41,230 nt of DNA. Source: Desulfobacterales bacterium (GTDB lineage Bacteria; Desulfobacterota; Desulfobacteria; Desulfobacterales; UBA11574). Position numbers and translations under genes: made by a program. Positions 7,000 to 37,310 of this stretch are shown here, piece by piece (position 1 is the stretch's first letter; the number at the start of each line of letters is the position of its first letter). Where the stretch lies: assembly GCA_030145345.1 (NCBI GenBank), contig JAQYVT010000017.1:1-41230 (forward strand), in the 5' to 3' direction. The notes beneath the pieces were generated by a model that was not told the origin of the DNA, ran no database searches, and saw only the letters and a program-made list of their open reading frames with translations.

Positions 7000-7275
7000 A
7001 TGAACAAGTTGGAGCTTATCTCCGCCTTGAAATCCGAAGCGAACATTACCAAAGCAGAGGCAGCAAGGGTGGTAGAGATATTTTTCGATAACATGGCCGA
7101 TGCCATGGCAAAGGGAGAACGTGTTGAAATTAGAGGTTTGTGCAGTTTTTTTGTTAAAGATTACAAAAGCTACACCGGCAGAAATCCGAAAACCGGTGAA
7201 AAGGTGATCATTAAGCCTAAAAAACTACCGTTTTTCAAATCTGGAAAAGAATTGAAAAATCGTGTAAATTATTAG
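7000..7275 (+). CDS. HU/IHF-family DNA-bending protein (IHF-beta-like)
   Basis: The 91 residues match the HU/IHF family length. The N-terminal helices (MNKLELISALKSEANITKAEAARVV) are followed by the GERVEIRGLCSF strand and the DNA-inserting arm GRNPKTGEKV, whose proline intercalates at the bend. The C-terminus LPFFKSGKELKNRVNY resembles IHF-beta more than HU. A strong Shine-Dalgarno sequence (AAGGAGG, 6990–6996) precedes ATG 7000. The stop is 4 nt before holB, so the two are probably co-transcribed. IHF commonly helps sigma-54 activators loop to their promoters, which is relevant to the regulon at 28–33 kb, but no specific link is shown. The HU versus IHF subtype is not settled. Confidence 0.92.
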   Translation: MNKLELISALKSEANITKAEAARVVEIFFDNMADAMAKGERVEIRGLCSFFVKDYKSYTGRNPKTGEKVIIKPKKLPFFKSGKELKNRVNY

Positions 7276-20286: not shown

Positions 20287-20431
20287 TAGTGTCCATCCGG
20301 AAACGAGGATTTTCGTTCAAAATCGAGGCATGGGAAAAGATTAACCGCAGGCATATATTTGATATTCTGAGGATTAATTTTTGAGCATAACGAAGATATT
20401 GGGCGAAAAGACCGTTTCTGGATAGACACTA
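20287..20431. mobile_element. MITE-like element with 19-bp terminal inverted repeats
   Basis: TAGTGTCCATCCGGAAACG (20287–20305) is mirrored by CGTTTCTGGATAGACACTA (20413–20431), 17 of 19 positions complementary, bounding a 145-bp non-coding AT-rich segment. Both ends carry TA, as expected of elements that target and duplicate TA (IS630/Tc1-type); that link is inference. The right end supplies the TAG stop codon of the large outer-membrane protein gene. No transposase is present. The rest of the 20143–20286 spacer shows nothing recognisable. Confidence 0.5.
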
Positions 20432-23400
20432 TTTATTCCCCCAAATCTTCAGTGCATTACGCACGGATTGCTGGTCGAACTTAAGGCGGAACTTCAAGTA
20501 CGGACCTTGTGCGGTAAAACTGCCTCTTGAAAAATCCTGATCTTCGAATCCAATGAAATTATATCCGGCGCAGATCCAGGCGTTGTCGAAAATATTGTGG
20601 CCCAGCGATACGCCGGTGCTATAGTCATATTGATCGGCGCTCCAAGAATGCAGCACGTTTCCACGAATTCCGACATCCCAATGTTCGTTCAGGTCATACC
20701 GTGCCTCTAATCCAATAAGATCGGTAAATCCACTATAATCATCACCATCGATGGTATCCTGCACATACTTTAAACCGTATTGGAGGGCTATCTGAGTCCT
20801 ATGATCCGGTTTGAAATTGGCACTCATATTGTTGACGATATGCCGGTTTTCGAAATTACTGTTGCTGTTTTCCTGTTCATTGAATTTGAAGTCGAGGCGG
20901 TCAAGGACGATCCACCGGGAATTTTTCGGACGATATGCCAGCCCTAAGCGTATATCGGCATCTGTGTTATTCGCACCGCTGTCTGCGTCTGTTTTGAAAA
21001 TTTGTACGCCGGCCGATACGCCGACACCGTGTACCGGCTCACCATAAATGCCGGTGGCGATCCGCCATTTGTCTTCATCCTCTGCGAAGCGAAATTCGAC
21101 ACGCGAGGTCCATGACCAGTTTTTTTCTTTATAGGTTGTCCCCATGGATACGGCCGTAAAATCATTGTCATTGCCGGAAGAGGGGGGCACATTGACGTTA
21201 AAGGGAGGAGATTCTGACTTCTTCAATGTCCTCGAGTGATCCAGCCCTGAATCAACACTCCATTTTTCATTGAGCTTCAGGGTCTGCCTAAGGCCGAGAT
21301 TTGCAAAAACGCGGGGTCCATATTCCGAAAATTGCCGCTCAACAGATGTATTCATCTCGTTACCGGACCAAGGTGTTGCTTTCATGCCAAGGCGTGTACC
21401 CTGTGTGTCTTCATATTCACCTTGTGTAAATTCCTGCTCACCGAACAGCATAACCGACTCTGTCAGCTTATAGTCGGCACCCATAATGGTACGGGTGGGG
21501 AAATCAGAATTATCATTGTTATTTCCAATAGATTGTTCCCGATCCAGTCTCAATTGGAGACGGTTATCGAACATTCTGTGGCTGGCCCCTGCGGTAACCT
21601 GATCAGATCGGTTGACCAGGCCATCGACAAACCTGTCTTCTGCATGACGCAACCCGGCATGCAGCGAGGACCGACCATTCGTATAATTTACCGCGGCCTC
21701 ACCCAGATCGCGCTCGGCGTCCGTGGCAAGATTGAACTGACGATAGGCCTGCCCGCGAGTGCTGAACTCCTTATTGAAACGATAGATGGCATCGGCGCCA
21801 ATCTTGCGCGTACCCGCCTCGCTTCCATTCTGCTGGCCCAGGCCAAACCCATTGCCCTGTTCCCTCACATAGAGTTGCCCCTTGAAGTCCCGCGACTGAT
21901 GGGTGAGATCTACAAGATAGGCATCTCCCTTTATTTCGGCCCCTTGATCCTCGGTCTCGCTGGTCGCCGCCTCGACTTTGAGTTGGGTATGCTTGCCGAT
22001 GTCAAGTGTCGCATCCACGCCGCCAAGGTCTCCTCTGGTACCGGTCTGTGCTTCATGTATATAGGTGGCGCCGATTTCGAGTTTCTCGTCAAGGAGTTTG
22101 ACGGCACCCCGACCGCCGTAAGTATACTCTTCGTCGGTGGCGTCGTATGTTTCGTAATCAACAACGATGAAAATGGGATTGAAATTTTCATCCTTGCTGT
22201 AAATCGGCTCCCTGAAAAACAGCGTCCCGGCATCATAGTCAATGTTATAGTCAATATGGCGTGTCAGCCTTTGAGAAGAGAGGATGACTTCACTTCTAAA
22301 GCGATCCCGGGTTTCAATCACAATTTTTTCTGAATTGATGACAATATTTTTCCGGGACAGATGATAGCGACCGGACGTGCCGTCCCCCCGGATCTCGTCT
22401 TTCACAAATGCCTGATCGGTTTCGCTGACGAACAGGTTGAAACTGTAATCTTTGGTCTTCAATTCAGATTTAAAACCGTTCAAGCTCCGGCTGTACCGAG
22501 ACAATTCAGTAACCGTGAGTCCGGTATCATAGTCACCGAACAAGGCGTAAAACTGATCCCGCTCGATTTTCACGTAGAGGTCCCTGGCGCTCGCCGCATC
22601 ATACTTCTGATCGGTTGCATCACCATACAGTGTGTAGTAGGTGTCCGGGTCGATGGTTTGATACAGACTGTCCCCAACGTCCTCGTTCGTTTTTTTATTG
22701 TCATAGGCCATGGTCAGGAGCCATTTGCCCTTGATCCTCCCCTTGGCAAACAGGGCAATCCGTCCTTCTTCGTACAGCGCGTCATCGATGTCATCAGCTT
22801 CGCTCGCATTCTCCATATGGCCTGTAACCGTATTATAACCCGTGGTTCCTTCTGCCAGGCCGACCAGGATCCAGTCCCTTTCCTCCGGCTGCAACCATAA
22901 CCGGAGTTCCTTCTCGTCATCAGCAAGATCCAGTTTCAGCACAACTTCACCTGCCCGTGAAGTTGCCTCAAGTTTTACCCGTGCAATTCCATCCTTACCA
23001 ACCACATAGTGAGGCGTATCCTTATCCATGCCGGACAGGGGATTTTTCTGGAGTGCATCTAACTCCTGTTCGGCAGCATAGGGCGAATCGACTGAAAAAC
23101 TACCGACGACACCTTCTCGAACAGGATATCCGTCTTTATCTGTCAGACGAATGGCAATCACGGGTGTGTTCCTGCCGTCTGCGAAAAGACTCGATTGTTC
23201 CTTCACCCATTCAGCGTGAACCGGAGGACCGGGATAATGTACGATACGTTTCAAGCGACCGGTTGTGTTGCCGGAGGTATCATAAACGATGACCTCGAAG
23301 TGATTGTCGCCCTCGTGCAGATCCACACCTGTCCAGCGGCTCACGGCAACCGTGCCGGATGTATTCTGACGTATGCTGTCGAAGTTTAGCGGACTGACCT

Positions 23401-25939
23401 CACTGCCGTCCAAGAGAAGCTTCAGGGTATCTTTTGGATCATGTTTAAAGGCCAGCTTGAGACTCGGGAGCGAGGGAAAATATCCCGGTTTTGGCCACAG
23501 CAGCTCGAGTCCCGGTGTGGCAATTTCAACCCATGTCTTGTCGTAGTTCTGTAGGGTCATCTGTTCGTTCGTTTCAACTTCGGCAACTTTCCACTGTTCA
23601 CCGGGCAACAATCCCGTCGTTTCGGCAACTACCGTTCCTTCAGCCTCGAGCATTAACCCATCTTCTTTGCCGAGCGGTTCACCGAAGGTTCCAAACTGTG
23701 GACGCAGTATTAAATCCGAATGTCCGGATTGCGCTTCTTCAGATTTTAGCAATAACAGGTTTTCCACAAGGGGGATGCGTTGATTATTATGGGTTGGTGT
23801 ATCGAACATAAGCATGCATTTTGTGATCAGCTTTCCGATTTCATCTTTCATGCTCACCGCACCTTTTAATAGGAGCTCTTTCTTATTTTCACCCTGTACA
23901 TCCCCGAGGCGATAGGTCAACACGTTTCCATTAACTTCCGGATCCGATAACGGTGTATTATCCAGCCTGCTGCTTTCGCTCACATAGGTTATACTTTCAG
24001 GCAGCATAATAGACAATCGAAGATTACGTATCGGCACGACACTGTTCTGCAAACCGACATGATACGCAACCGTGTCGTCCTCGACGGAACTTTGAAAATG
24101 CAGGGTTATTTCCCCCTTCATTCTGGGTTTTAGCGCCACGTGGAAATCAGTACGCCACAGGGTTCCACCCTGGAGGTCGACGAACTGCGAATAGCTGCGG
24201 CCGGCGAAGCGGCTGTTTTTTTCGCAGGGGACAACCTCGTATTTGTCAGGCAGACTATCCAGATCGAGCTGGACGACGTGAACACCCGGCCGAACCCCTT
24301 CAAAGTGAAACATACCCTGCTTGTCGGTAACGACATAGGTGCCATCTTCAAGATAGATTCGGACACCTTCGACGCCGTCGTCTTTTTCTGTAGGAATGTC
24401 ATCACAGTTATCAGCGATGACGCGGCCTACGATGAAACTCCTGCTCCGAAAAAGATCTTCCTTGACCTCCACCGTGGCACTGGCAACGTTTGAGGTCAGT
24501 CCACCGGCACCCGCTGCAAAGGCCCGATTGGTGGCCTTACCGGGTCTTGCACCCGCTGCGACTTCCACGACATAGCGGATGTTCACATGGGTATCGGCTC
24601 CCAAGGCCCCAAGGTTAAATTCAAGGCTGCGGCCGTCCGAGGAAACGACCGGGTCGGTGAAGGGCATATCATCCGTTTTTGCGGATCCCGGCTGGTAGCG
24701 AAATCCCAGGGGCAACCTATCGGTCACCACCACGTCAAAGGCCTGACCCTCGGTGGCATTTTCGATGTAGACGTTGTATTGCAAAAAGTCGCCCTTTGCG
24801 ACAATGTCCTTGTTGGCGGTTTTTCTGAGCCAAAGAGCGCTGTCTATAGGATCCATCGGAATATCCAGGTGAAATGCCGGACCAGAGTCGAGTATAAAGG
24901 GTTCGCTTCTGGAACCGGGATCAACGATGGCAAACGGCCCGCCCGGCAATGACTGGAGGATTGCAGTGGAAACTGTTGAGGGAGCGTCATAACCGGCCGG
25001 CGGCACCACATCCAGGCGATAATTCCCTGGAGCGGTGAACGGGAATCGGTAGCCACCTGGCGGAAAATTGTAGGTCTTTCCGCCACTGTCGGTCACCGTG
25101 CCGCCGGAGGTGATGGTTGAAGGAAAATTGCTGACACCATCATCACCCAAAACCGCGGCAGGGAGACCTGTGTCGGTGTTTACCAGGGTGATGCTCGTAC
25201 CGTCAACCCCCAGGCCGGTCGCGCTGCTGAATACAATGCCAAAGGGGTCCACCAGAACAGTTGAAGAAGCGCTGTCGCCACCGTCTGCCACGTCCGCATA
25301 GTTTGAAATGACTTCGCACTCCTCAGCAACGCTCAGAATGCTGTCATTCGCCGTTGCGGGGGGTGGATTACCCGCAGACTGGATATATCCCGCAAACACC
25401 CCGGTATTGAGATCGGTCTCCCTTAGACGAAGAAGCTCTTTCTCTCCCAGAAGACCGACGCTTACCGTTACCAGTACGGTCTCGGCAACAAGTGGATCAA
25501 GATTTTGATCCGGATCGGTCAATCTCAGAAAGACAGGTTCACCCTGGTGTAAAAGGTGGGTTGGGAGCAGGGGTACCGGATTACTCAGGTTGATGGGTAC
25601 AGAACTGCCGATGGGGGTGGGAGGGGGCAGTTGCACGAAAGGACCTGCATCCGTGCCGCTGGTGCTGCACTCTGTGATGGGAACAGTAACCAGCTCCGCA
25701 CCAGAAGCAGATTGAGCATACTGCAAATACTCCAGCGCGGACGGGGTTCGGATAATCTCCGTCACCGAGGTCACTGTATTAGATATCAACACAATACCGG
25801 TTGCGGTGCCGGCGTCATAGGTGACCTGCGCAGTATTGCTGATCACCGTTCCTGGCGGGACACACCATCCCCAGGTGGGTATGAGCGGGATGATAAAAAG
25901 GGCGCATACCACCTGTATGTAAGTGCGAAACGTTGTCAT
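20429..25939 (-). CDS. Giant outer-membrane protein: DUF11/Ig-like domains + C-terminal beta-barrel
   Basis: About 1836 residues. ATG 25939 gives a good signal peptide (MTTFRTYIQVVCALFIIPLIP); an in-frame GTG at 25972 would add 11 residues. The order, in approximate residues, is: an N-terminal module (GTVISNTAQVTYDAG) shared with the 391-residue protein encoded upstream; a DUF11 domain at 365–480 (GDFLQYNVYIEN … VVVTDRLPLGF); a carboxypeptidase-regulatory/SdrD-B-like fold at 520–565 (GVEGVRIYLEDGTYVVTDKQG); a second DUF11-like stretch near 605–700; an Ig-like domain near 905–1000; then from about 1016 a series of alternating amphipathic strands (YYTLYGD, FYALFGDYDTG) typical of an outer-membrane barrel, ending LKFRLKF. 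It is probably the membrane anchor, exporter or assembly platform for the small DUF11 proteins encoded just upstream. That role is inferred from context only. Confidence 0.75.
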   Translation of the reverse strand: MTTFRTYIQVVCALFIIPLIPTWGWCVPPGTVISNTAQVTYDAGTATGIVLISNTVTSVTEIIRTPSALEYLQYAQSASGAELVTVPITECSTSGTDAGPFVQLPPPTPIGSSVPINLSNPVPLLPTHLLHQGEPVFLRLTDPDQNLDPLVAETVLVTVSVGLLGEKELLRLRETDLNTGVFAGYIQSAGNPPPATANDSILSVAEECEVISNYADVADGGDSASSTVLVDPFGIVFSSATGLGVDGTSITLVNTDTGLPAAVLGDDGVSNFPSTITSGGTVTDSGGKTYNFPPGGYRFPFTAPGNYRLDVVPPAGYDAPSTVSTAILQSLPGGPFAIVDPGSRSEPFILDSGPAFHLDIPMDPIDSALWLRKTANKDIVAKGDFLQYNVYIENATEGQAFDVVVTDRLPLGFRYQPGSAKTDDMPFTDPVVSSDGRSLEFNLGALGADTHVNIRYVVEVAAGARPGKATNRAFAAGAGGLTSNVASATVEVKEDLFRSRSFIVGRVIADNCDDIPTEKDDGVEGVRIYLEDGTYVVTDKQGMFHFEGVRPGVHVVQLDLDSLPDKYEVVPCEKNSRFAGRSYSQFVDLQGGTLWRTDFHVALKPRMKGEITLHFQSSVEDDTVAYHVGLQNSVVPIRNLRLSIMLPESITYVSESSRLDNTPLSDPEVNGNVLTYRLGDVQGENKKELLLKGAVSMKDEIGKLITKCMLMFDTPTHNNQRIPLVENLLLLKSEEAQSGHSDLILRPQFGTFGEPLGKEDGLMLEAEGTVVAETTGLLPGEQWKVAEVETNEQMTLQNYDKTWVEIATPGLELLWPKPGYFPSLPSLKLAFKHDPKDTLKLLLDGSEVSPLNFDSIRQNTSGTVAVSRWTGVDLHEGDNHFEVIVYDTSGNTTGRLKRIVHYPGPPVHAEWVKEQSSLFADGRNTPVIAIRLTDKDGYPVREGVVGSFSVDSPYAAEQELDALQKNPLSGMDKDTPHYVVGKDGIARVKLEATSRAGEVVLKLDLADDEKELRLWLQPEERDWILVGLAEGTTGYNTVTGHMENASEADDIDDALYEEGRIALFAKGRIKGKWLLTMAYDNKKTNEDVGDSLYQTIDPDTYYTLYGDATDQKYDAASARDLYVKIERDQFYALFGDYDTGLTVTELSRYSRSLNGFKSELKTKDYSFNLFVSETDQAFVKDEIRGDGTSGRYHLSRKNIVINSEKIVIETRDRFRSEVILSSQRLTRHIDYNIDYDAGTLFFREPIYSKDENFNPIFIVVDYETYDATDEEYTYGGRGAVKLLDEKLEIGATYIHEAQTGTRGDLGGVDATLDIGKHTQLKVEAATSETEDQGAEIKGDAYLVDLTHQSRDFKGQLYVREQGNGFGLGQQNGSEAGTRKIGADAIYRFNKEFSTRGQAYRQFNLATDAERDLGEAAVNYTNGRSSLHAGLRHAEDRFVDGLVNRSDQVTAGASHRMFDNRLQLRLDREQSIGNNNDNSDFPTRTIMGADYKLTESVMLFGEQEFTQGEYEDTQGTRLGMKATPWSGNEMNTSVERQFSEYGPRVFANLGLRQTLKLNEKWSVDSGLDHSRTLKKSESPPFNVNVPPSSGNDNDFTAVSMGTTYKEKNWSWTSRVEFRFAEDEDKWRIATGIYGEPVHGVGVSAGVQIFKTDADSGANNTDADIRLGLAYRPKNSRWIVLDRLDFKFNEQENSNSNFENRHIVNNMSANFKPDHRTQIALQYGLKYVQDTIDGDDYSGFTDLIGLEARYDLNEHWDVGIRGNVLHSWSADQYDYSTGVSLGHNIFDNAWICAGYNFIGFEDQDFSRGSFTAQGPYLKFRLKFDQQSVRNALKIWGNK

Positions 25940-26134
25940 GTCGTTGGAATCTCTGCTAAAAAACCGAAACACCCGCCGGTGTTTTACTGTTCACGGCAGG
26001 TCTTGGTTCAACCCGTTTGCATCAGTCCCATGAAATGCTGCCATGGCGCCCACGCGGACATTTAAGTCCAGAGAGGCGCGGGCGCCATGCGGCATTCCTG
26101 TATAAAATCATTTCAGACTGTGCCCCCCTTCTCA

Positions 26135-27310
26135 TCACTGGATAATTACGTTAAAGGTCAGCGTCACCGACTCGCCCGCTTTCAGCTCTCCCGCAGCATA
26201 TCCCGGGCCGGCCTCCGCAAGGAGAACCGTCGCCATGGTTGCGGTGACTGTTCCCCCGGTGGCAGAACCGTCATGATCAACGCCGTCGACGGAACTCGTC
26301 GTCGTGAAATACTGCGGCGTTCCCTGTGATGCTCTGGTGGTACCGACAAGGTCCACCCTGAATCCCGAACCGGCAGCACTTTCCGGATTACCCGTGGCAG
26401 CGACAATGAGATCAGGATCAATCGCGGTATTGTTATCCAGTGTATCGCTGATTGTGGTCAGCGTGGCCGAGGCACCCGCACCGGCTGCATTGCTGATGGT
26501 GACCACATACTGGATATAGGCGCCGGGAATATGCTTCGGGTTCGTATTCAGGTTGAAGGGATCCCTGATGACCGTTGAAGCCTTGGTAACGGTCAACTGG
26601 GCCGATAACACCCGGTACGCATCGGTATCGGAGTGCGAAGCATCCCTTGCCGCATCGGTATCACCCGCACCGTCGGCAAACACGATATCCACCGCGCCCG
26701 GCGTATCCGCGCCTGCGGTTTCGGTAAGGACGGCACCCAGGCTTCCGGCCCCACCACCTGCACGGGCCGTCGCGGTGAGGGTGTAGGCAGCGATGTCACC
26801 GCTGGACTGTCCGACGGGTATATCTGCCAAGACATAACCGGTGGCCACACCGTCGGCAGCCAGCTCATCGATGTAGGTCGCCGTGTCTTCCCCGGCCTGA
26901 TAGCCCGCGGTGGCACCGCTTTCAGCAAAGACCCGGATATTGTTGGCATCGAAATTGTCCGTACCGCCAAACGGATCGGCACCTGCCGCTGCTGAAAGTG
27001 CAAAATCCTGGGTCGTGTTTCCGTCGTTTTGCACCGTGAACGTCGTCACTTGATTTGTGGTGTTCGGGTTCACGTCGGTGTACCCACTGCTCACCTCTGC
27101 GACAACGAGATCGATTTTGTTGTCCACCTTGAATGTGGTGGTATTACTCGAAATCGGTGTTTGCGCGCTGCCACCCACATCGAAGCTGACGCTGGCCTGG
27201 TTGGTGATGTCGGTGTTGGAAGCGGTCCCGGCCGCCCATGCAGCTTGCGGCATGAGCACTCCCCCAACAAACAGCGTGCAGATCATCATAAGTTTTTGTA
27301 ACGTTTTCAT
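26135..27310 (-). CDS. Secreted DUF11-type surface protein (391 aa)
   Basis: A clear signal peptide ends at MPQAAWA. The mature N-terminus, GTASNTDITNQASVSFDVGG followed by ISSNTTTFKV, resembles the N-terminus of the large barrel protein. The body is low-complexity Ala/Gly/Thr/Asp-rich beta-sandwich-like sequence. The C-terminal part (KASTVIRDPFN, then TNPKHIPGAYIQYVVTISN) is a DUF11-type repeat closely similar to the C-terminus of the 1424-residue beta-helix protein. ATG 27310 is chosen because GGAGGAG lies 5 nt upstream; a start 21 nt earlier lacks such a site. No membrane anchor, LPXTG or PEP-CTERM tail is seen, so it is probably released, or assembled by the barrel protein downstream. Function unknown. 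Confidence 0.8.
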   Translation of the reverse strand: MKTLQKLMMICTLFVGGVLMPQAAWAAGTASNTDITNQASVSFDVGGSAQTPISSNTTTFKVDNKIDLVVAEVSSGYTDVNPNTTNQVTTFTVQNDGNTTQDFALSAAAGADPFGGTDNFDANNIRVFAESGATAGYQAGEDTATYIDELAADGVATGYVLADIPVGQSSGDIAAYTLTATARAGGGAGSLGAVLTETAGADTPGAVDIVFADGAGDTDAARDASHSDTDAYRVLSAQLTVTKASTVIRDPFNLNTNPKHIPGAYIQYVVTISNAAGAGASATLTTISDTLDNNTAIDPDLIVAATGNPESAAGSGFRVDLVGTTRASQGTPQYFTTTSSVDGVDHDGSATGGTVTATMATVLLAEAGPGYAAGELKAGESVTLTFNVIIQ

Positions 27311-27392
27311 TTTACTCCTCCTTTCTTTCATTTTCTTTCACCTTTTTTTAATTTCCAGGGTTCATACATCGTTGTTTTTTTGTTTCAGATGC

Positions 27393-27890
27393 TTATTCAA
27401 GCTGCGCCCGAAAATTGACCCGTCCTTTTTCTTCCGGTGCCAACGATTTCTGTAACGTCCAACGAATGTGGGTATAGTCTGACCCCTTTGCCGGACGCTT
27501 TTTACCATCGGCACCAACCATGGTAAGGTTGATGGGAACGTCATAGCGCTTTCCGTTATCCACGGAAAACGTTATGCCCGTGCCCACACCGGACGCGCTG
27601 CCATCCTCGTAACGCATATGTTCGGGAACCGGGTTGGTAATGACCACCTTGTCCGCCGGCGCCTTACCCACGTTGGCGTAATAAATCGTGTAAATGACAA
27701 AATCGCCGGGAACGACGCTGGAAGCAGGAAGACGTTTGAGTTCCTTTTCACCGTTGGCATTGATCACTTCCATCTCCACCTCGGCGACCGCCTTAAGTTC
27801 AATGTTCCCTTTTGGCTGGGCCCACGCCGCACTGTTTGCGATAAACGCGGTGAGTAATGCGGCTAACATAATTAGAACATACCTTTTCAT
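27393..27890 (-). CDS. Small secreted single-DUF11-domain protein (165 aa)
   Basis: The signal peptide (MKRYVLIMLAALLTAFIANS) is cleaved after AAWA. The mature protein is essentially one DUF11 domain: VVPGDFVIYTIYYANVGKAPADKVVITNPVPEHM, then DYTHIRWTLQKSLAPEEKGRVNFRAQLE at the very C-terminus. The same THIRW/THLRI block and terminal strand occur in the beta-helix protein. ATG 27890 has a strong GGAGG upstream. It lies 54 bp after the receiver-domain gene and 82 bp before the 391-residue protein, consistent with one transcript. A pilin-like or matrix subunit is conceivable. The domain call is firm; the role is unknown. Confidence 0.8.
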   Translation of the reverse strand: MKRYVLIMLAALLTAFIANSAAWAQPKGNIELKAVAEVEMEVINANGEKELKRLPASSVVPGDFVIYTIYYANVGKAPADKVVITNPVPEHMRYEDGSASGVGTGITFSVDNGKRYDVPINLTMVGADGKKRPAKGSDYTHIRWTLQKSLAPEEKGRVNFRAQLE

Positions 27891-27944
27891 TTTATATCCT
27901 CCTCTTTTCATTGATTATTACCTCTTTTATCTTTTTCTGAGATG

Positions 27945-28385
27945 TTAAATTTTGTTTGGCGGGCCTGTCAGCTCGCACAAGTCTCCGCTGTTTTTTTTCT
28001 GAGGGTCCCCAACCAAGTGCACCAGCGAATCGATAAGCTGTTTGACCGAAAATGGTTTCTGGATAAAAGCGTGGACACCGATCCTGGATGATTCACCAAT
28101 CAACTCCGGATCGCCGAAAGCTGAAATGAGTATTTTTAGAATATGAAACGGATGGTTATTGGCCATCTTGAAGAATTCAAGTCCATCCATTCCCGGGAGC
28201 CTGAGATCACAAATGATGATGTCAAAATGCTCCTTTTCGAGGGCCTGGAGTCCTTTTTCTGCATTTTCATAGACTTTCAAGCAGCATCCCTTGCTTTTAA
28301 AGGCCATGGCCAACGCGTTGCGGATCATCTCATCATCGTCAACGAGCAAGGTTTTTAAATTTTTTAATTTGCTAAAGGTTTTCAT
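27945..28385 (-). CDS. Stand-alone response-regulator receiver domain
   Basis: 146 residues. The CheY-like features are acidic DDD at 16–18, phospho-acceptor Asp60 in IIICDLRLPGMDG, a serine switch residue in LISAFGD and the conserved lysine in IQKPFS. No output domain follows; the tail after VHLVGDPQ is short and polar. ATG 28385 has GGGAGG 4 nt upstream. It is the first gene after the -24/-12 element at 28451–28466, ahead of the secreted DUF11 genes. It may share the PAS kinase encoded at 34.8–36.8 kb, acting as a phosphate sink or signalling to another partner; this is inference. Confidence 0.88.
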   Translation of the reverse strand: MKTFSKLKNLKTLLVDDDEMIRNALAMAFKSKGCCLKVYENAEKGLQALEKEHFDIIICDLRLPGMDGLEFFKMANNHPFHILKILISAFGDPELIGESSRIGVHAFIQKPFSVKQLIDSLVHLVGDPQKKNSGDLCELTGPPNKI

Positions 28386-28450: not shown

Positions 28451-28466
28451 TGCATAAATGATGCCA
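28451..28466 (-). promoter_or_regulatory. Sigma-54 -24/-12-type promoter, unit 2
   Basis: On the minus strand this reads TGGCATCATTTATGCA, compared with the consensus TGGCACG-N4-TTGCA: GG and GC are 10 nt apart as required, and the -12 element is ATGC. It lies 66 nt upstream of the receiver-domain start codon. It has the same TGGCAT…TGCA form as the element at 33208–33223, and a shared upstream motif lies exactly 88 nt away in both. Confidence 0.7.
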
Positions 28467-28554
28467 TGGGTGCCAAGTGTGTATAAATACAATAAAATCA
28501 AGCTAATAGAAGATTTTGCGTGGAAGGGTGAGGATTGCTGGGGAAACTATTTGT

Positions 28555-28589
28555 GGAATTTAACCCAAACAGATTGTGGAAAATGACCC
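28555..28589. promoter_or_regulatory. Upstream activator motif, copy 1
   Basis: GGAATTTAAC at 28555, CAAACA at 28566 and TGTGGAAAATGAC at 28575 match 33312–33346 in order and spacing (30 of 35 identical). It begins 88 nt beyond the -24 end of the sigma-54-type element. An imperfect dyad (TTTAACCCA … TGTGGAAAA) fits binding by a Fis-type helix-turn-helix dimer. The rest of the spacer (28590–28716) is a low-complexity stretch with no gene or clear terminator seen. Confidence 0.65.
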
Positions 28590-28716
28590 TAAAGTGGACG
28601 TCAGAAGGTTTAAGGTGCAGGCACAGGGCGAATTGGGGGGCATAAGGAAAAAGGCAGAGGGTTATATGTATTTGGTGCTAGGGCTTTTTCATTTAACCTT
28701 GTGCCTTGGGTTTATC

Positions 28717-31700
28717 TCATTCCACCCGCACCTTGAATTTGACCTCGAAGGTGGGGATATCCCCTCCGCTTGCCCCATTAAACGTGCCTTTGGGATTGAT
28801 GCGCAGGTGTGTTACATTAGTGTCGAACCCATCGCCATCGGGTACGGGAATGTAGGTATATATGGTGCCGCCATCGTTGGAAAACGCCACATCATCGGTC
28901 AGATTGTCGAGGCTGGTAAAGGTGTAAGAGAGACCGCTGTCATCTGGCGGTGTGCCATCGGTAAAGAGAACCGGACCGGCAGCCGGTCCGGAACCGTCGA
29001 TGTCCCCCACAAACAGGGCGGTATTTGCGGGTATCGGGTCGGTGATAAAGACCGTGTCGGCATCGGTGGCGCCGTCACCCTGATTGGTAACGGCGACGGT
29101 AAAGAGCATCACGGCGCCGGGAATCGCCTTGGGATTGGTCTCCCCATTGTAGGGATCTGAAAAGGTCTGGACCGACTTGACCATGATGATGTCGGGCACC
29201 AGTGGGAACCAGTCGATGGTGTTGTGGCTGTCAACGGAATACGTTGGGTTGATCGGTTTCTGGGAGGCATCCGAGCCGGAGGCATCCGAGTCCTTCACAT
29301 CCACGTAGGAGATGTCTTTTGCGGTGCCGGCAGCTAGCGTGAAGTTCCAGCGGGTGTCAGGGGTTCCGGATACCAGGCTCAGGAGATTTCCATCTGCACC
29401 CTGCAACGTGACCGTCCCCACAACGGTCTGGGTGGCGCCGGCTTCAAAGGTGAGGGTGTCGGCAGTGGTGACCGTTTTGGTCAGATTGTTAAAGCTTGTC
29501 GTACCTGAAATGGTCTGACCGGTCCCATCCAGGGCCACGGTTCCGGAGTTGTGGCTGAAGGTGCCGGCGGAGTGGTCAAAATTACCGGCAATGCTCATGT
29601 TTCCGCTGGTGCTGGTAAAACCGCCGCCGCTCAGCGTCAGCGTGCCGTTGACATCGATGGTTCCGGTTCCGCCACTAAAGGTGCCGAGGTTTTCCATGTG
29701 GGGTGTGGTCACATCCCCGCCGGGGGCGAAGCTGTACCCGGTGGGAACGTAGAGTTCGGTGCCCGATCCGGTGACGGTCAGATCCGTCCCGCTGGCCACC
29801 GAATAGAGAATATCGCTGTCCGTCGATCCTCCTTTTGCGCCCGCCATGGTGGCAGTGGAAAGGACTCCGCCGTTGTCGTGACGGGTGATGCAATGGCCCG
29901 CGTAGATATCAAGGTCGTTAAGAAGGGTACCGTCAAAAACGGTGACGGTCGTCCCCTTGTAGGTCGCATCACCGTCGACGTATGCCACCAGATTGTCTCC
30001 GGCGACGGACGGGACGACCATGAACCAATAGCCGTCATCGTCGGTGATGTCCGTCTCCGCGAGCACCCCGTTCTTCAGGAGGACGACGGTCCTCCCTGCC
30101 CCGACGACGGTCGTGCCTTCATCAGAGAAGACAGTCCCTCCGATGGTGGGGGTGCCTGCCTCGTCGATCGTCTCGCCTTCGCCGGTGTCCGCGTCGTAGA
30201 GTGTCCGGTCGTAGTAGTCGGCGTAGATGGAATCCTTGGGTTTCGATAGATCGGCTTTGCTGTATGAGATCAAAGCGGTAAGAATGGTGGGCCCGCCCGT
30301 AAATGACGGCAGGTCGCTGTAGGGCAATTCCACCTCAACGAAGGTGTCCGTATCCCACGGCCCGGTTGCGGTGCCGACGCAGTAATCCCCGGGGGTTGTA
30401 TAGGTCTGGCTGAGGGTCTGATTGCCGCATCCGTAGGGGATGCTGTTATCACAGGTGTAGAGTTCCACCTCGGAGCTGCCGGTTTTATCGAATGACACGA
30501 TGAGGGCGGCATTGATGTTGTCGTCGAGGTCGGTGTCGATGAGCACGCCGGCGGCGGTCTTCTTAGGGGAGCTGTCGTCGAAACCGAAGAGGAGATAGAA
30601 GGTGTCGACAAGATTGCTTGCAACGCCGAACCGCGTAACGTCTAATGGTGGCGGGTCGACCCAGTCATTTTCTCCCCCCGCGTCGTCGACGACGAATTCG
30701 GTGCCGTCACCGTCGGTCCAGTCGGAAAAATCACAGTCGCCCCCGATGTCATTCCCGGGAAGGACACTCAAAGATTTACTGAATTCGGACGTATTATTAC
30801 CCGGGTCAGTTGCCGTGGCCGTTACGACGTAGCCCACCGGAACCGACGTGGGAAACGTGAAGTCTCTATTCCCGCTTCCGTCGGTTGTAACGGTGGTCGA
30901 TCCCAGGTACGTTTCCCCCTCACCGTATCCCGAGGGATCAGCGGCAGGGCTGGAAAAGAATTCGATTCGGAAGGTAGTGCTGGCGGCGCTGCTGAGGGAA
31001 CCTTCGATCGTCGTCGTCCCGTCCAGGGTGCTTGCCAGTGTCAGCACCGGATAGTTCTGGGTATAGTTAGACCCTGTATCGCCGTCCCCCACATCGTTGG
31101 CGCTCACCCCATCATCGTTGAGGTCTATTCCCAGTCCATTGTTTGAATACACCGCGTTTCCCAGCAGCGCATTCGCTGTGGAGCTGTCGATTATGGCAAT
31201 CCCATCCAATGCATTGTTGGCAATGCTATTGCCCATACCTGCCGTTGTCCCGCCGATGGTGTTACCGGAGCATCCTGATCTGATCGACATCCCTCTAAGA
31301 GAGTTCGGCAGGGCTCCTGACCCGCCCACATCGGTACCAATTAAATTTCCCCGGACAACATTTCCGTTCGTCGCGATCCGTATGCCGTCCCCACTATTAC
31401 CCGATATGAGGTTTCCTGTTGTCACACCGCCGATGGTGTTGCCATTGGACCCGGATCGTATGGAAATCCCATTGCCGGTGTTGCCCCGATCAAGGGTCCC
31501 GCTCACGTCGGTCCCAATGTAATTGTTTTCGATCACATTGCTCCCTGCCGTCATCAGCGTGATTCCCTCATCACCAAAACGATTGATCACCAGGCCCCGT
31601 ACGGTGCTGCTCCCCCCGCTGATAATCAGGCCATCAGCACCGGAACCTGCACTAGTTCCGTTCATCTCGATCTCCGGACCGCTGGCGTTGGTGTTGCCGA

Positions 31701-32991
31701 TAGTGGTTGTCTGGGTGGTGCCATCCAATGTCGTCCCGGTATCCACACTGCCAGGCAGCACGGTTACCGGTGCAATGGATGCAACTCCGCCGACCAGCAA
31801 GGCGGCTGGAATCCGAAACTGGCTGGAGTTTGCCGTGGTTCCACCGGTCGTGCCGATGGCGTTGGCATTCTTGATGAACTGCCGCAGGCTGCCTTGTTTG
31901 CTGCGTGCGTTGTTCGCATTCGAATCGTCATCGGTGTTCACAATGAGGTTATGGGCAAAACCGAAGTTGACATTGGAGACGTCGGCGCCGCTCACCGTGA
32001 CGGTGACATAGGTGTCCCCCGGACCGGCATTGTCTCCTGTAGCGGTATCATCCACGGAAACATCCTGGCCGCCATACAGGGCTGTGCCATTGCCCCAGGT
32101 CATCTCCGGCAGGGGGTAGGGCCAGGTTCCGGGGACCGTAGCGTTCAGGCCGCCATTGGGCAGGGTGTCGGCATCACCGATGGTGGTCGAGCGAACACGG
32201 ACCTTGTAGGTACCGTCAGCAAGGCCGGTGAAGCTGTAGTTGCCGCCGGCATCTGTGGTCGCCGACGTAATGTATGTATTGCTACTGTTGTAAAGTTCAA
32301 CGTCCACATTGGCGAGGGCAAGATCGCCGGCACCCCCGTCGTAGTCGGCAGCCGTGCCGGCAAAGTCGGCATCTTCAAAGACCCTTCCGCTGAGGGTCTC
32401 CCCGGTGGTATAGTCGATCTGGACGTTGTCGATGTGGATGTGTTGATAGCCGGGCACGGCACCATGAAACCAGAAACTAACCCGTACATTCGCCGTCAGA
32501 CTGATGGCGCTTTCCAGGGTATAACTTTTGTTTCCGGGGACGTCTCCGATCTGGAATTCTTCAAGGGTGGTGTAGCTGGTGCCGCCGTCATCGGAGACCT
32601 CAACCTTAAGCATTCCGTCCGGGGCGCCAGCACTGTCGCCAGCATAGTCGAAGGAGAGGGTTGCCGATGTGGCCCCGGAAAGATTGGCGGGCCGATAAAT
32701 ACCGTGAAAATCAAACGGGTCATAGCTCTGCATGGCGAGACACTGATTTTCCACCCAAACATTGCCCCAAACCGGCGTGCCATCATCCCACACGTCCACC
32801 CAGGGGGTGGCGCTCCAGTTCACCGTGCCGTCGCTGCCGTTGTAGGCAACGGCATTGAACTCGTCGCGAACCGTTTCAGCGTAAACGGCGCTTGCCAGGA
32901 AAAGCGACATGAGCAGACAGGCAACGAGGGTCAGTTGAGCTTGAACTTTCAAGAAACAACCGCTGATTTGCTTTTTTGCGTTAGTCCCCAT
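28717..32991 (-). CDS. Giant secreted beta-helix/SdrD-B/DUF11 surface protein (1424 aa)
   Basis: The signal peptide ends at ASAVYA (residue 38). In order: a jelly-roll-like N-terminal domain (40–195) with HIHIDNVQIDY; an SdrD-B-like fold (197–270, SGRVFEDADFAG … GNYSFTGLADGTYKVRV); a CSLREAI-like motif GSLRQFIKNAN (near 370); a parallel right-handed beta-helix (430–650, repeated GNTIGG/NVIENNYIGTDV turns); an Ig-like segment; an unrecognised Cys-containing module (745–930, GDCDFSDWTDGDG); a second carboxypeptidase-regulatory-like fold; hemagglutinin-like beta-rolls (1034–1250); and a C-terminal DUF11 domain (1267–1424) ending FEVKFKVRVE. The start is ATG 32991, with only an A-rich ribosome site. 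It is preceded by a sigma-54-type element and lies downstream of the activator gene. Its composition is visibly more GC-rich than the flanking spacers. Adhesin or surface matrix is likely; the ligand is unknown. Confidence 0.82.
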   Translation of the reverse strand: MGTNAKKQISGCFLKVQAQLTLVACLLMSLFLASAVYAETVRDEFNAVAYNGSDGTVNWSATPWVDVWDDGTPVWGNVWVENQCLAMQSYDPFDFHGIYRPANLSGATSATLSFDYAGDSAGAPDGMLKVEVSDDGGTSYTTLEEFQIGDVPGNKSYTLESAISLTANVRVSFWFHGAVPGYQHIHIDNVQIDYTTGETLSGRVFEDADFAGTAADYDGGAGDLALANVDVELYNSSNTYITSATTDAGGNYSFTGLADGTYKVRVRSTTIGDADTLPNGGLNATVPGTWPYPLPEMTWGNGTALYGGQDVSVDDTATGDNAGPGDTYVTVTVSGADVSNVNFGFAHNLIVNTDDDSNANNARSKQGSLRQFIKNANAIGTTGGTTANSSQFRIPAALLVGGVASIAPVTVLPGSVDTGTTLDGTTQTTTIGNTNASGPEIEMNGTSAGSGADGLIISGGSSTVRGLVINRFGDEGITLMTAGSNVIENNYIGTDVSGTLDRGNTGNGISIRSGSNGNTIGGVTTGNLISGNSGDGIRIATNGNVVRGNLIGTDVGGSGALPNSLRGMSIRSGCSGNTIGGTTAGMGNSIANNALDGIAIIDSSTANALLGNAVYSNNGLGIDLNDDGVSANDVGDGDTGSNYTQNYPVLTLASTLDGTTTIEGSLSSAASTTFRIEFFSSPAADPSGYGEGETYLGSTTVTTDGSGNRDFTFPTSVPVGYVVTATATDPGNNTSEFSKSLSVLPGNDIGGDCDFSDWTDGDGTEFVVDDAGGENDWVDPPPLDVTRFGVASNLVDTFYLLFGFDDSSPKKTAAGVLIDTDLDDNINAALIVSFDKTGSSEVELYTCDNSIPYGCGNQTLSQTYTTPGDYCVGTATGPWDTDTFVEVELPYSDLPSFTGGPTILTALISYSKADLSKPKDSIYADYYDRTLYDADTGEGETIDEAGTPTIGGTVFSDEGTTVVGAGRTVVLLKNGVLAETDITDDDGYWFMVVPSVAGDNLVAYVDGDATYKGTTVTVFDGTLLNDLDIYAGHCITRHDNGGVLSTATMAGAKGGSTDSDILYSVASGTDLTVTGSGTELYVPTGYSFAPGGDVTTPHMENLGTFSGGTGTIDVNGTLTLSGGGFTSTSGNMSIAGNFDHSAGTFSHNSGTVALDGTGQTISGTTSFNNLTKTVTTADTLTFEAGATQTVVGTVTLQGADGNLLSLVSGTPDTRWNFTLAAGTAKDISYVDVKDSDASGSDASQKPINPTYSVDSHNTIDWFPLVPDIIMVKSVQTFSDPYNGETNPKAIPGAVMLFTVAVTNQGDGATDADTVFITDPIPANTALFVGDIDGSGPAAGPVLFTDGTPPDDSGLSYTFTSLDNLTDDVAFSNDGGTIYTYIPVPDGDGFDTNVTHLRINPKGTFNGASGGDIPTFEVKFKVRVE

Positions 32992-33207
32992 TCTTTTTCT
33001 TGTCGTGTTCGAACCAATGGTCCAGAGCTCTATGTGTTTCTTGAGCGAAAATAGGTTTTCAATAAATTCATCGACTCGCAGTGTTCATGATTAGAAAATA
33101 GGTAACACTTTACCTTTTTGAAAATATAATCATACCTGAAGTCCTTTTGAAACCGGCTTGTTTCAAAGAATTAAACTGTTACGAAAATAGTAACCTTTGA
33201 TTCCTTC

Positions 33208-33223
33208 TGCAGGGAATATGCCA
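33208..33223 (-). promoter_or_regulatory. Sigma-54 -24/-12-type promoter, unit 1
   Basis: On the minus strand this reads TGGCATATTCCCTGCA: TGGCA at -24, CTGCA at -12, with correct GG–GC spacing (10 nt). It lies 216 nt upstream of the beta-helix protein start, so a long 5' leader is implied. It pairs with an upstream motif 88 nt away, as at 28451–28466. Confidence 0.7.
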
Positions 33224-33250
33224 AAGAAATGCTTGTCCGAAAAAATTAAA

Positions 33251-33290
33251 GATATCATAAAGTTAAATGTTGCAAACTCTATATGATATC
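33251..33290. promoter_or_regulatory. Inverted repeat between promoter and activator motif
   Basis: GATATCATA (33251–33259) and TATGATATC (33282–33290) are perfect inverted copies 31 bp apart centre to centre, about three helical turns. They lie between the -24/-12 element and the 33312–33346 motif. No counterpart exists at unit 2, so this may bind a different regulator. Confidence 0.4.
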
Positions 33291-33311
33291 AATACCCATC
33301 GGCCAAATTGA

Positions 33312-33346
33312 GGAATTTAACACAAACAAGCTGTGGAAAATGACAC
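33312..33346. promoter_or_regulatory. Upstream activator motif, copy 2
   Basis: GGAATTTAAC at 33312, CAAACA at 33323 and TGTGGAAAATGAC at 33332, the same order and spacing as 28555–28589. The dyad TTTAACACA…TGTGGAAAA is complementary at 7 of 9 positions. It lies 54 bp past the stop of the sigma-54 activator gene, the likely binding protein. The 33347–33400 remainder shows nothing. Confidence 0.65.
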
Positions 33347-33400
33347 ACCAACGTCGTCCATTGCCGACAAAAAGAATAAATATAAGGCAGGTTTTTGGAG

Positions 33401-34792
33401 TCAACCGACATGGTCTAATTTTTTGCGACGATAACGGAAGCTGTCGCGGCTTAAATTCAACAGTTTGGCGGCCTTGCTTTCGTTGCCGTTGGCCAATTGG
33501 AGTGCCTTCTGGAAGTAATACGATTCAATGGCGGCAATAAAGGCGGGGAAATCGATGCCTGCCAAGGGCAACGGTGGGAGCTGGGTTCCATTTTCAAGTT
33601 CTATGCAAGCGTTATCCTGGCTGGTGGTCTCCAGGCCTAAATTTTGGAGCATCAGTTCCGGCCCTTCTTCGAGGAGGACGCCTTTTTCGATAACATTTTT
33701 CAATTCGCGGACATTGCCTTTCCATTCAAATGTTTTTAAGGTCGATTCAGCTTTGGGAGAAATACCGGTAAATTTTTTGCCCAGCTTTTGGTTGAATTCG
33801 ACCAAAAAGTGTTTCGCGATCAAAAGAATATCATCACGTCGCTGATTTAAGGCGGGGGTTTCGATTTTGACCACCGCGATTCTATGATAAAGATCGGGTC
33901 TGAAGCGTTCCTCTTCGATCATTTGGAGCAGATTCTTGTTGGTTGCGGATACGACTCTGGTACGGATGTTTTGTTTCCGGGTACCGCCCACCCTGTAAAA
34001 TTCGCCGTCTTCCAGGAATCTCAATAGCTTTGCCTGAGCCTCCAGGCTCAGATCGCCAATTTCATCAAGGAATAGGGTTCCGTTGTTCGCCTTTTCAACC
34101 AACCCTGTTTTACCACTCCGGTTGGCGCCGCTAAAAGCGCCTTTTTCATACCCAAAAAGCTCACTTTCAATCAATTCTTTAGGTATTGAAGCACAATTGA
34201 CCGCAATCATGGGTCCCTTGAAATGGGGACTGCGGTAATGGATGGCCCTGGCAATCAGCTCTTTGCCCGTTCCGGTTTCACCCTGTATTAGAATGGGGGT
34301 ATCAGGGCTGCGGGCCGCTTTCTTGACAATGTCCATGATATTCTGGACGGCATCGCTTTCACCGATAAAGCAGGGCAGATTCTCCTTGAGGTACTTTTCA
34401 TGGAGGGCCTGAATCTCCTTGCGCATGGAAACCGCGTCGAGTGCGTTGCGGACGCTTACCATCAGCGCATCCATCTGCACCGGTTTAACCACATAATCGT
34501 GTGCGCCGAGTTTCATGGCCTCAACAACGGTGCTGACATCCTCAAGGGCCGTTATCATGATAACGATCATGTCTGGATGGATTTGCTTTATCTTCTCAAG
34601 CGCTTGAATTCCGCTCATGCCCGGCAGACCGACATCAAGAAGAACCATATCCGGTATGTTGCTTGGCATGGACTCAATCGCGGCCTCGGCAGAAGGAAAG
34701 GCTTCGACACGGTAGAATTTTCTAAGTGCCAGGGAGATTCCTTCCCTGACCAACGGTTCATCATCAACAATAAATATAGTAAAAGATATCAT
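33401..34792 (-). CDS. NtrC-family sigma-54-dependent response regulator
   Basis: 463 residues in three parts. The receiver domain has Asp53 in LLDVGLPGMSG and Lys103 in VVKPV. The AAA+ sigma-54 activator domain has Walker A GETGTGKE (171–178), Walker B FLDEIGDL (241–248) and an R-finger region RFRPDLYHRI. The C-terminal Fis-type helix-turn-helix is ALQLANGNESKAAKLLNLSRDSFRYRRKKL. The sigma-54 contact loop reads GAFSGA (218–223) rather than the canonical GAFTGA. The start overlaps the kinase stop by 4 bp (ATGA), so the two are translationally coupled. It lies directly upstream of the beta-helix gene and of two candidate sigma-54 target elements; control of those units is the natural inference. 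Confidence 0.95.
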   Translation of the reverse strand: MISFTIFIVDDEPLVREGISLALRKFYRVEAFPSAEAAIESMPSNIPDMVLLDVGLPGMSGIQALEKIKQIHPDMIVIMITALEDVSTVVEAMKLGAHDYVVKPVQMDALMVSVRNALDAVSMRKEIQALHEKYLKENLPCFIGESDAVQNIMDIVKKAARSPDTPILIQGETGTGKELIARAIHYRSPHFKGPMIAVNCASIPKELIESELFGYEKGAFSGANRSGKTGLVEKANNGTLFLDEIGDLSLEAQAKLLRFLEDGEFYRVGGTRKQNIRTRVVSATNKNLLQMIEEERFRPDLYHRIAVVKIETPALNQRRDDILLIAKHFLVEFNQKLGKKFTGISPKAESTLKTFEWKGNVRELKNVIEKGVLLEEGPELMLQNLGLETTSQDNACIELENGTQLPPLPLAGIDFPAFIAAIESYYFQKALQLANGNESKAAKLLNLSRDSFRYRRKKLDHVG

Positions 34793-36843
34793 CTAGAGTG
34801 CGTCCTTTTTTCTATCGGAAGTCCGACTCTAAAAGTGGAGCCACCATATTCGTTTTCCAGAATTGTAATCGTTCCATGGTGATCCGAAATGATTCTTTGG
34901 GCAATGCTCAACCCAATCCCTGTCCCATCGGGACTGGTTGTAAAAAAGGGATTAAAAACTTGATTTTTGAGTTCTTCGGGAATGCCCGGTCCCGAGTCGG
35001 AAACTTGAATGTAAAGGTTTTTCTTTTTGCAGAATGAATCGATCTGAATCCTTTTGGATTTTTGGTTTTTTCCCATTGCCCGGGTCGCATTATTGATCAG
35101 ATTTAAGAGGACCTGTTCGATCAGATGAGAATCGCCATAGCATTTCGGCAAGTCTGGTTTCAGTGACTTTTCGAGCTTGATATCATTTTGGCGAAGCGTG
35201 ACCGCTGAAAAATTCAGTGTCCCTTCAATACATTGGTTAAGGTCAATCAGATCCATTTTAGGAGGATTGGGCCTGGAAAAATCGAGCACTCTTTTAATAA
35301 CGGCCTCAATTTTGTCTGATGCAAGGTGAAATTGGCGGACAATTTGTTTAATCATTTCAATTTGGTCACCCTCAATAATTTCCGAATCACATAAATCTTC
35401 AAGGGTGTATAAATAAGAATTGATCCCGGTCAGCGGGTTTCGTATTTCATGAGCGATGCCGGCCGCAACATGTCCCAGCGAGCTCATCCTTTGTTGGATG
35501 GCTAATAAATGTTCTATTTCCTTGACCTGGGTGATGTCCATCATATTGAGCAGGATCGCATCCTCTTCCTGATAGTTAATCAAACTAGCGCGGCACTCTA
35601 CCCAACATAGACTAAATTTACGATCCTTTTTCCCCGGCGGATAAAACCTGAAGTCCACGGCCGATGTTTGGGTCTTTCCGGAAGTCATTTGTCGATAAAC
35701 CTTCTTGCACTTGTCAACATCGTCCGCATGGAGGTAGTCGAGGACATGGTTTTCAAATCTTTTGGGTAAAGGTCCCCATAGCCTTTTCAGGCTGGGATTT
35801 TGGTAGACGATTTGGTTCTGTTGGATGATGCAAATACCCACCGGTGAACTTTCTACGAGAGTACGGAAGCGGTTTTCGCTTTCTCGAAGCGCTTCCTCCA
35901 TCTGCTTACGTTCTATTATTTCTTTCTTCAGTTTCTCGTTTGACACAACCAGTTCGGCAGTTCGTTCATTAACTCGCTGCTTCAGCTCGTCGCGACCTTT
36001 TCGCACCTTATCCTCCGCCTGCTTTCGATCCGTGATGTCATGAATAATCGAATATAGAAGTTCTCTATCATGCAGTTTAATAGGACCGCTGTATATTTCA
36101 ACATCACGGATTTCTCCACTCGCCAGACAGTTCTGAAAATAAAGTTTTCGATGCTGTTCCGTCTTCGCTTTCTCCATTTCCTGAAACACTTGCTCTTCTG
36201 TGAGCATATAAATATTTGAAGTTTTCTTGCCGGTAAGCTCTTCATGACTCCAGCCATAGAAGGAGATAGCTGCCGGGTTGGCATCTATTATATCTGCATT
36301 CTCCGGATCAATCAGTAGCATCACGGCATGATTGTTCTTGAAAAGGCTCCGGTACCGTTCTTCACTCTCTTGTAGCGCCGCCTCTGTTTTCTTGCGACTG
36401 GTTATATCAAGTACCGTAAAGGTTACACCCATCGACAAATCGTTCGGGTCAATAGGGGCCGAACTTAAAAGGACATCAATCACTTTGCCGTCTTTGCGCT
36501 GCAAATGTGTTTCGACAATCCCGGTTCCGCGTTCATAGATCTGTGCGTATTTCTCACTCCCAACATGTTTATAATCCTCATCGGTCAGGTATAGCATTCT
36601 TGAACTTTTTCCTAATAGCGCTTCTTGGGAATAACCCAGTATTTCACACAGCCGATCATTGGCTTGTTTGATAACTCTATCGCATACCGTACCAATACCT
36701 GCTGGCACAGCTCGAAAGATGCTTCTTAATGTGGCCTCCCTTTCTCTAAGCGCTCCCGCCGTCTGCTTGTGCTCAAAAGCTTCTTTCTCCAGCTCTTTGA
36801 CCCTTTTCTCCAGTTCCTTATAGGTTGGTTTTCCGGCCATCAT
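34789..36843 (-). CDS. PAS-domain sensor histidine kinase (cytoplasmic)
   Basis: 684 residues from ATG 36843, chosen for GGAGG five nt upstream. It begins with a coiled-coil-like helix (ELEKRVKELEKEAFEHKQ), then three PAS domains (near residues 40–160, 160–285 and 325–440; the first with GYSQEALLGKSSRML) separated by a heptad-rich linker. The kinase core follows: H-box AAGIAHEIRNPLTGI with His465, N-box LLNLINNATRAM, G1 DSGPGIPEE and G2 GTGIGLSIA. No transmembrane segment or signal peptide is visible, so it senses an internal or membrane-permeant cue. It is paired with the sigma-54 activator by a 4-bp overlap. Nothing in the sequence shows the ligand. Confidence 0.95.
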   Translation of the reverse strand: MMAGKPTYKELEKRVKELEKEAFEHKQTAGALREREATLRSIFRAVPAGIGTVCDRVIKQANDRLCEILGYSQEALLGKSSRMLYLTDEDYKHVGSEKYAQIYERGTGIVETHLQRKDGKVIDVLLSSAPIDPNDLSMGVTFTVLDITSRKKTEAALQESEERYRSLFKNNHAVMLLIDPENADIIDANPAAISFYGWSHEELTGKKTSNIYMLTEEQVFQEMEKAKTEQHRKLYFQNCLASGEIRDVEIYSGPIKLHDRELLYSIIHDITDRKQAEDKVRKGRDELKQRVNERTAELVVSNEKLKKEIIERKQMEEALRESENRFRTLVESSPVGICIIQQNQIVYQNPSLKRLWGPLPKRFENHVLDYLHADDVDKCKKVYRQMTSGKTQTSAVDFRFYPPGKKDRKFSLCWVECRASLINYQEEDAILLNMMDITQVKEIEHLLAIQQRMSSLGHVAAGIAHEIRNPLTGINSYLYTLEDLCDSEIIEGDQIEMIKQIVRQFHLASDKIEAVIKRVLDFSRPNPPKMDLIDLNQCIEGTLNFSAVTLRQNDIKLEKSLKPDLPKCYGDSHLIEQVLLNLINNATRAMGKNQKSKRIQIDSFCKKKNLYIQVSDSGPGIPEELKNQVFNPFFTTSPDGTGIGLSIAQRIISDHHGTITILENEYGGSTFRVGLPIEKRTHSR

Positions 36844-37310
36844 TAAATCCTCCAACTACATAAAAACGAAAGGGTCCATACTATGGTACAGCTTGAAATA
36901 TAAAGAATAAGTATTTATACTCTGGGTTGGACGCACGTCCCGACCTTGTCAATGTGTCAAGTCAAGCCCGATTCTGTGATATTTGATGAACGCGTAAAAA
37001 GCCTTTTACGAAACCGTCATGTTTTACTTTACCCTCGTTTAGCGTTTAACCTTGTTTAAAAACTTATAGGTTAATGTATTTTGTATGTCAAATAAAAAAT
37101 AGCACAATATATAGTAGTTAAAAGCGATAAAATTATGGATAAGGTGGTTAAAAACGACACCTGATGACCGCATATCAAAATATGGTGATAAAGATTATCG
37201 CAAGCGTTCACAGGTTCAGCGCTCATCCCGTTAAATTTCCCGAATCCAAGCTTATTGGCAACGAGAATTGTTTCTTAAGAACCTATTTCGAACGGTGAAA
37301 ATTATCAAAA

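Follow-up and report, generated by a model that had tools for sequence, protein, structure and literature searches.

Comparative analysis of a 41,230-nt stretch of DNA from a Desulfobacterales bacterium (UBA11574; GCA_030145345.1, contig JAQYVT010000017.1, positions 1–41,230), hereafter the window, indicates that two of its intergenic regions each hold, in all likelihood, a sigma-54 promoter, both belonging to a single small regulon that would be switched by an adjacent kinase/NtrC-type activator pair with the probable assistance of IHF. Established at the level of sequence comparison are the architecture of the activator site, the conserved geometry of the promoters, the tracking of the site by the recognition helix of the activator, and the receiver and surface-protein context. 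The regulon is of a familiar type, is well supported by comparison, and appears to be undescribed, as no description of it or of its site was found in the running text of the open literature. For a two-component system of uncultured relatives of sulfate reducers, the analysis names a candidate activator, its putative DNA site and a few predicted targets, and the site model is usable for finding regulon members in further genomes.

Gene layout of the locus and the proposed switch

The genome to which the window belongs comprises 3.57 Mb and is ~98% complete. All of the genes of the locus are found on the minus strand. The most upstream one encodes a histidine kinase with PAS domains (34789–36855; Pfam PAS, HisKA and HATPase_c), and its end overlaps the start of the gene for an NtrC-type sigma-54 activator (33401–34792), of which the kinase is the probable partner. 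The activator consists of a receiver, a sigma-54 interaction AAA+ domain and a Fis-type HTH (Pfam Response_reg, Sigma54_activat and HTH_8), has an LSRDS recognition helix, and has orthologues with a linked site. Its gene adjoins the predicted upstream activating sequence B (33308–33348), composed of tandem 18-bp inverted repeats (33331–33348 and 33308–33325) and recovered both by a model from other genomes (E-value, 4.9e-7) and as a PWM pair. An IHF-like site (TAACTTTATGATA, 33253–33265) and a -24/-12 element (TGGCATATTCCCTGCA, 33208–33223) follow, and unit B itself encodes a single 1424-aa predicted secreted/surface protein (28717–32991) with SdrD_B matches in Pfam and an N-terminal hydrophobic segment in its translation.

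Promoter A has the same layout, with the predicted upstream activating sequence A (28551–28591; inverted repeats at 28574–28591 and 28551–28568; E-value, 4.1e-8, and a PWM pair), an IHF-like site (TATTAGCTTGATT, 28496–28508) and a -24/-12 element (TGGCATCATTTATGCA, 28451–28466). Unit A begins with the gene of a stand-alone receiver-domain protein of 146 aa (27945–28385; Pfam Response_reg), whose ATG at 28385 is preceded by GGGAGG and whose orthologues in relatives likewise lie behind this promoter. Behind it, after a gap of 33 nt, lies the gene of a 172-aa DUF11 surface protein (27393–27911; domain match), which is probably co-transcribed with the receiver gene. Next come the genes of a 398-aa predicted secreted protein (26135–27331), which has an N-terminal hydrophobic segment and no Pfam match, and of an 1847-aa DUF11/SdrD_B surface protein (20429–25972; Pfam), possibly the end of unit A. 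Judged by eye, the C-terminal third of the 1847-aa protein resembles an outer-membrane beta-barrel. The earlier note had proposed a two-unit surface-protein regulon; the sites are indeed confined to two units, each with predicted surface proteins, but unit A begins with a receiver.

According to the proposed mechanism, the kinase would phosphorylate the adjacent activator, which would occupy both 18-bp inverted repeats of the tandem pair in front of each promoter. IHF, as the probable cause of a DNA bend ~42 nt upstream of the -24 box, would help to bring the activator onto the sigma-54 RNA polymerase waiting at -24/-12. Promoter B would drive the 1424-aa surface protein, and promoter A the stand-alone receiver, probably together with the DUF11 surface proteins encoded further downstream; the role of the receiver may be feedback (as a phosphate sink) or a second output.

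Activator site and promoter geometry

A 35-bp motif at 28555–28589 and 33312–33346, identical at 30 of 35 positions on the minus strand, had been reported in the earlier note, and both coordinates and identity were right on recheck. In 1000 Markov-shuffled intergenic pairs the best 35-mer match averaged 21 and never exceeded 25, compared with 30 in the real pair. The shared element is real, although its true extent is not 35 but 41 bp (28551–28591 and 33308–33348): when aligned with the sequences that follow the regulator genes of orthologous loci, it resolved into a tandem pair of 18-bp inverted repeats (consensus TTGGGnnAnnTnnCCCAA), 23 nt apart. Paired dimer sites of such size are the usual targets of NtrC-type proteins that have a Fis-type HTH. 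In relatives, the step between repeat units is usually 22–23 nt; in some of them the units abut, with a step of 18 nt.

The proposed scan of the whole genome for the motif, with up to three mismatches allowed, found no copies beyond the two of this locus. A dispersed repeat lacking -24/-12 elements, which the earlier note had named as the finding that would speak against it, was looked for genome-wide and is excluded; the reading of the motif as a dispersed mobile repeat is scarcely credible, nothing having been found in its favour. The binding site had also been expected to be searchable throughout the genome. A 41-position site model, trained on 12 sites that all come from genomes other than the window's, recovered exactly the two window sites (E-values, 4e-8 and 5e-7), at which binding is predicted, with the next-best match at 0.19. 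Single 18-bp units gave weak matches elsewhere in the genome; with the window units discounted, these were roughly as frequent as in a control with the reversed pattern and hence uninformative.

The TGGCAT-N6-NTGCA elements described in the two minus-strand spacers were confirmed at 28451–28466 and 33208–33223, and both have GG-N10-GC spacing. They are the only matches to TGGCA-N7-TGC[AT] on either strand of the window, and each agrees with the consensus (TGGCAC-N5-TTGC-like) at 9 of 11 positions; the -24 elements read TGGCAT instead of TGGCAC, which was counted against the sigma-54 reading. The genome encodes rpoN (PF04552 match; E-value, 1.9e-65). A sigma-70 promoter overlapping element A was considered (score, 10/12) and rejected, as such matches arise by chance.

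The distance between the 35-bp motif and TGGCA-N7-TGCA, reported as 88 nt in both copies, was exactly that when measured, and corresponds to 84 nt from the end of the 41-bp site to the sigma-54 element. In 23 of 24 promoters that had been located solely via the activator site, the best sigma-54 element lies 79–87 nt from the end of that site; the one exception, 107 nt, equals 84 nt plus one 23-nt unit step. The spacing is also kept by sites away from the regulator gene, namely three in genome G011 (82, 82 and 83 nt) and one in G109 (C17; 83 nt). The equal distance in the window is therefore less remarkable than had been thought, given how little relatives vary, while the suggested selection on geometry is backed by 23 of 24 promoters: the family gives this constraint much stronger support than the two window copies. 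Taken together, the comparisons support the assignment of both sites as sigma-54 promoters, each served by an activator site further upstream.

The equal spacing might instead have been inherited, not selected, if the two copies arose by recent local duplication of one promoter region. Relatives usually have the gene order activator–promoter–receiver, and here a surface-protein gene lies inserted between; G109 and G145 likewise have two-copy site arrays at the locus. Against this stand the window spacers, identical at 29 of 88 positions (27% expected), and the upstream flanks, identical at 26 of 100, so that only the functional elements still match, as well as the 82–83 nt spacing at the unrelated G011 loci. 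As a sufficient explanation duplication is thus largely refuted and unlikely; as the origin of the two copies, it is compatible with the regulon proposed here. A role of the repeats as transcription terminators, or as RNA hairpins that mark gene ends, is highly improbable: they are inverted, and each follows closely behind a gene of the same strand, but neither intergenic region has a terminator-like site and the distance to the sigma-54 element is constant in 23 of 24 promoters.

The 88-nt spacers had been called unrelated, which holds for their overall sequence but not for an IHF-like site that both carry at the same offset, 42 nt before the TGG, with 8 of 9 positions matching YAANNNNTTGATW. 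This consensus for IHF is weak, AT-rich and was picked after viewing the spacers, which makes the following shuffle figures indicative, not blind: such a site at any common offset in both spacers occurred in 0.025% of dinucleotide shuffles, and matches of at least 7/9 at -43 to -40 were found in 15 of 21 non-window promoters drawn from both paralogue classes (shuffle mean, 1.15; maximum, 5). Scores of 6/9 or less were obtained in G010, G002, G109-C4b, G039 and G073, several of which keep TAAC at that place. It is likely that the IHF-like site, if bound by IHF, helps to account for the fixed spacing. The genome has 13 matches to the HU/IHF family; two of the three scanned are nearest to IHF-beta, below curated cut-offs. 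A candidate source of IHF is the IHF-beta-like gene at 7000–7269 on the plus strand, outside the locus, whose best NCBIfam matches are to IHF-beta, below the curated cut-off. Two of the 13 family matches in this 3.6-Mb genome have an in-frame TAA.

Recognition helix and site class of the activator

The earlier note had named the NtrC-type regulator 54 bp from one copy as the probable cognate activator. The distance is right, and the site was found to follow the recognition-helix class of this protein. Among 45 homologous regulator genes, a TTGGG-type site pair lies downstream of all 16 with an [ST]RD helix and of none of the 29 with other helices; as the [ST]RD proteins form one clade (support 0.999 in a tree built without the DNA-binding domain), this match represents a single evolutionary co-change, not 16 independent ones. 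Many paralogues with NHH or NYH helices have tandem TTTCGAAAtnttTCTAAA units instead, the strongest being at loci L020, L040, L081, L022, L104, L019 and L109, as scored with a matrix built from some of those same sites. One genome (G010) has both regulator types, each beside its own site type. The regulator of G223 is ~64% identical, like some [ST]RD members, and yet its helix is of the NHH type and its site of the TTTCGAAA type. Among the TTTCGAAAtnttTCTAAA-type loci L020, L022, L040, L081, L104 and L109, those inspected have the same arrangement of sigma-54 and IHF-like elements, and in L020, L022 and L081 a receiver gene follows.

The same tracking was observed across whole genomes. In a scan of 30 genomes, the site model gave matches in all 12 whose orthologous activator belongs to the same helix class, and the 18 others gave none. 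When 389 genomes of the order were scanned, 18 matched, and 15 of these have the orthologous activator; G121, which has it too, gave a match only in a laxer search (E-value, 0.0017). In the other three of the 18, G124 (70% complete), G201 (78% complete) and G316, whose match is marginal, no activator gene was detected; the G124 site lies near a receiver gene.

A different NtrC-type protein of the genome could bind these sites as genuine sigma-54 activator sites, since many homologous regulators are likely to be present (103 first-look candidates), including a paralogue with 61% identity. This is quite unlikely, given that the site follows the present helix class and that genomes with other helix classes only, G223 among them, have no such site. 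Based on these comparisons, the neighbouring regulator is very probably the activator of both units and is the best-supported candidate for that role. The paralogue in question (C139:386-1774, L080) has an INHHT recognition helix and adjoins its own kinase; no TTTCGAAA-type pair was found beside it on a contig that ends 385 nt downstream.

Two paralogue classes with different helices and sites within one promoter architecture provide a natural test of specificity change in NtrC-type activators. As a tentative and rather doubtful extension, paralogous switches of Desulfobacterales (kinase, NtrC-type activator and receiver) may have diverged into insulated regulons through a few helix residues and the DNA site, with units of site–IHF–promoter, giant surface protein and receiver duplicated as cassettes and the receiver acting as built-in feedback on surface-protein production.

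Comparison with known systems and targets in relatives

The closest precedent is PrsK/PrsR, in which an activator motif, a spacer and a sigma-54 element lie upstream of PEP-CTERM genes in Proteobacteria (PMC1569441), and pepA expression is RpoN-dependent (PMC9850573). Both systems have an NtrC-type regulator and a kinase, a motif upstream of -24/-12, surface or extracellular targets, and co-occurrence of motif and regulator. They differ in the spacer, 62.8 ± 10.6 nt in PrsK/PrsR (PMC1569441) versus 79–87 nt here, and in the stand-alone receiver, which is a conserved target only in the present system. Membership in the PrsK/PrsR–PEP-CTERM system was considered and rejected: the regulator scored 360 bits against PEP_resp_reg (TIGR02915), whose cut-off is 502.6, and PEP-CTERM matches were found neither in the window proteins (NCBIfam; Pfam only for 20429–25972) nor in the tested proteins of relatives (Pfam only). 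The present system thus seems to work like PrsK/PrsR without belonging to it.

Two-component sigma-54 regulons of D. vulgaris are also similar, as far as the text of the respective papers goes: activator genes are co-localised with the promoters, most of which lie close to the activator site, the sites are palindromic, and the regulons are small, mostly one to four operons, some with exterior or biofilm targets (PMC3333781, PMC4641369). Neither an orthologue nor a matching motif turned up in the running text of these papers (PMC3333781, PMC4641369), and, unlike those regulons, the present system was traced in Desulfobacterales only. The orp promoters of D. vulgaris resemble the present ones in that IHF sites separate the activator site from the sigma-54 element and lie about equally far from the promoter, but they have another activator (DVU2106) and other targets, and IHF binding and requirement were demonstrated experimentally there (PMC3897727), whereas binding is predicted here.

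Relatives have the same promoter in front of a receiver gene, the gene of a large secreted protein, or both. Of these targets the receiver recurs most constantly, and our guess is that it acts as feedback. In G011, the distant sites (L087, L088 and L089) lie before a small TPR-like gene, before a GAF-GGDEF diguanylate cyclase gene and near a contig end. The targets include a LamG/beta-helix/SdrD_B protein of at least 2979 aa in G078, a LamG/SdrD_B protein of 981 aa in G088, and C25-peptidase proteins of ~4470 aa in G145 and 2449 aa in G109. The regulon may bear on how very large surface proteins are expressed, among them the gingipain-like C25 peptidases of relatives. The C25 domains are of the gingipain type and occur in giant predicted secreted proteins (L086:2405-15871 and L091:7076-14425).
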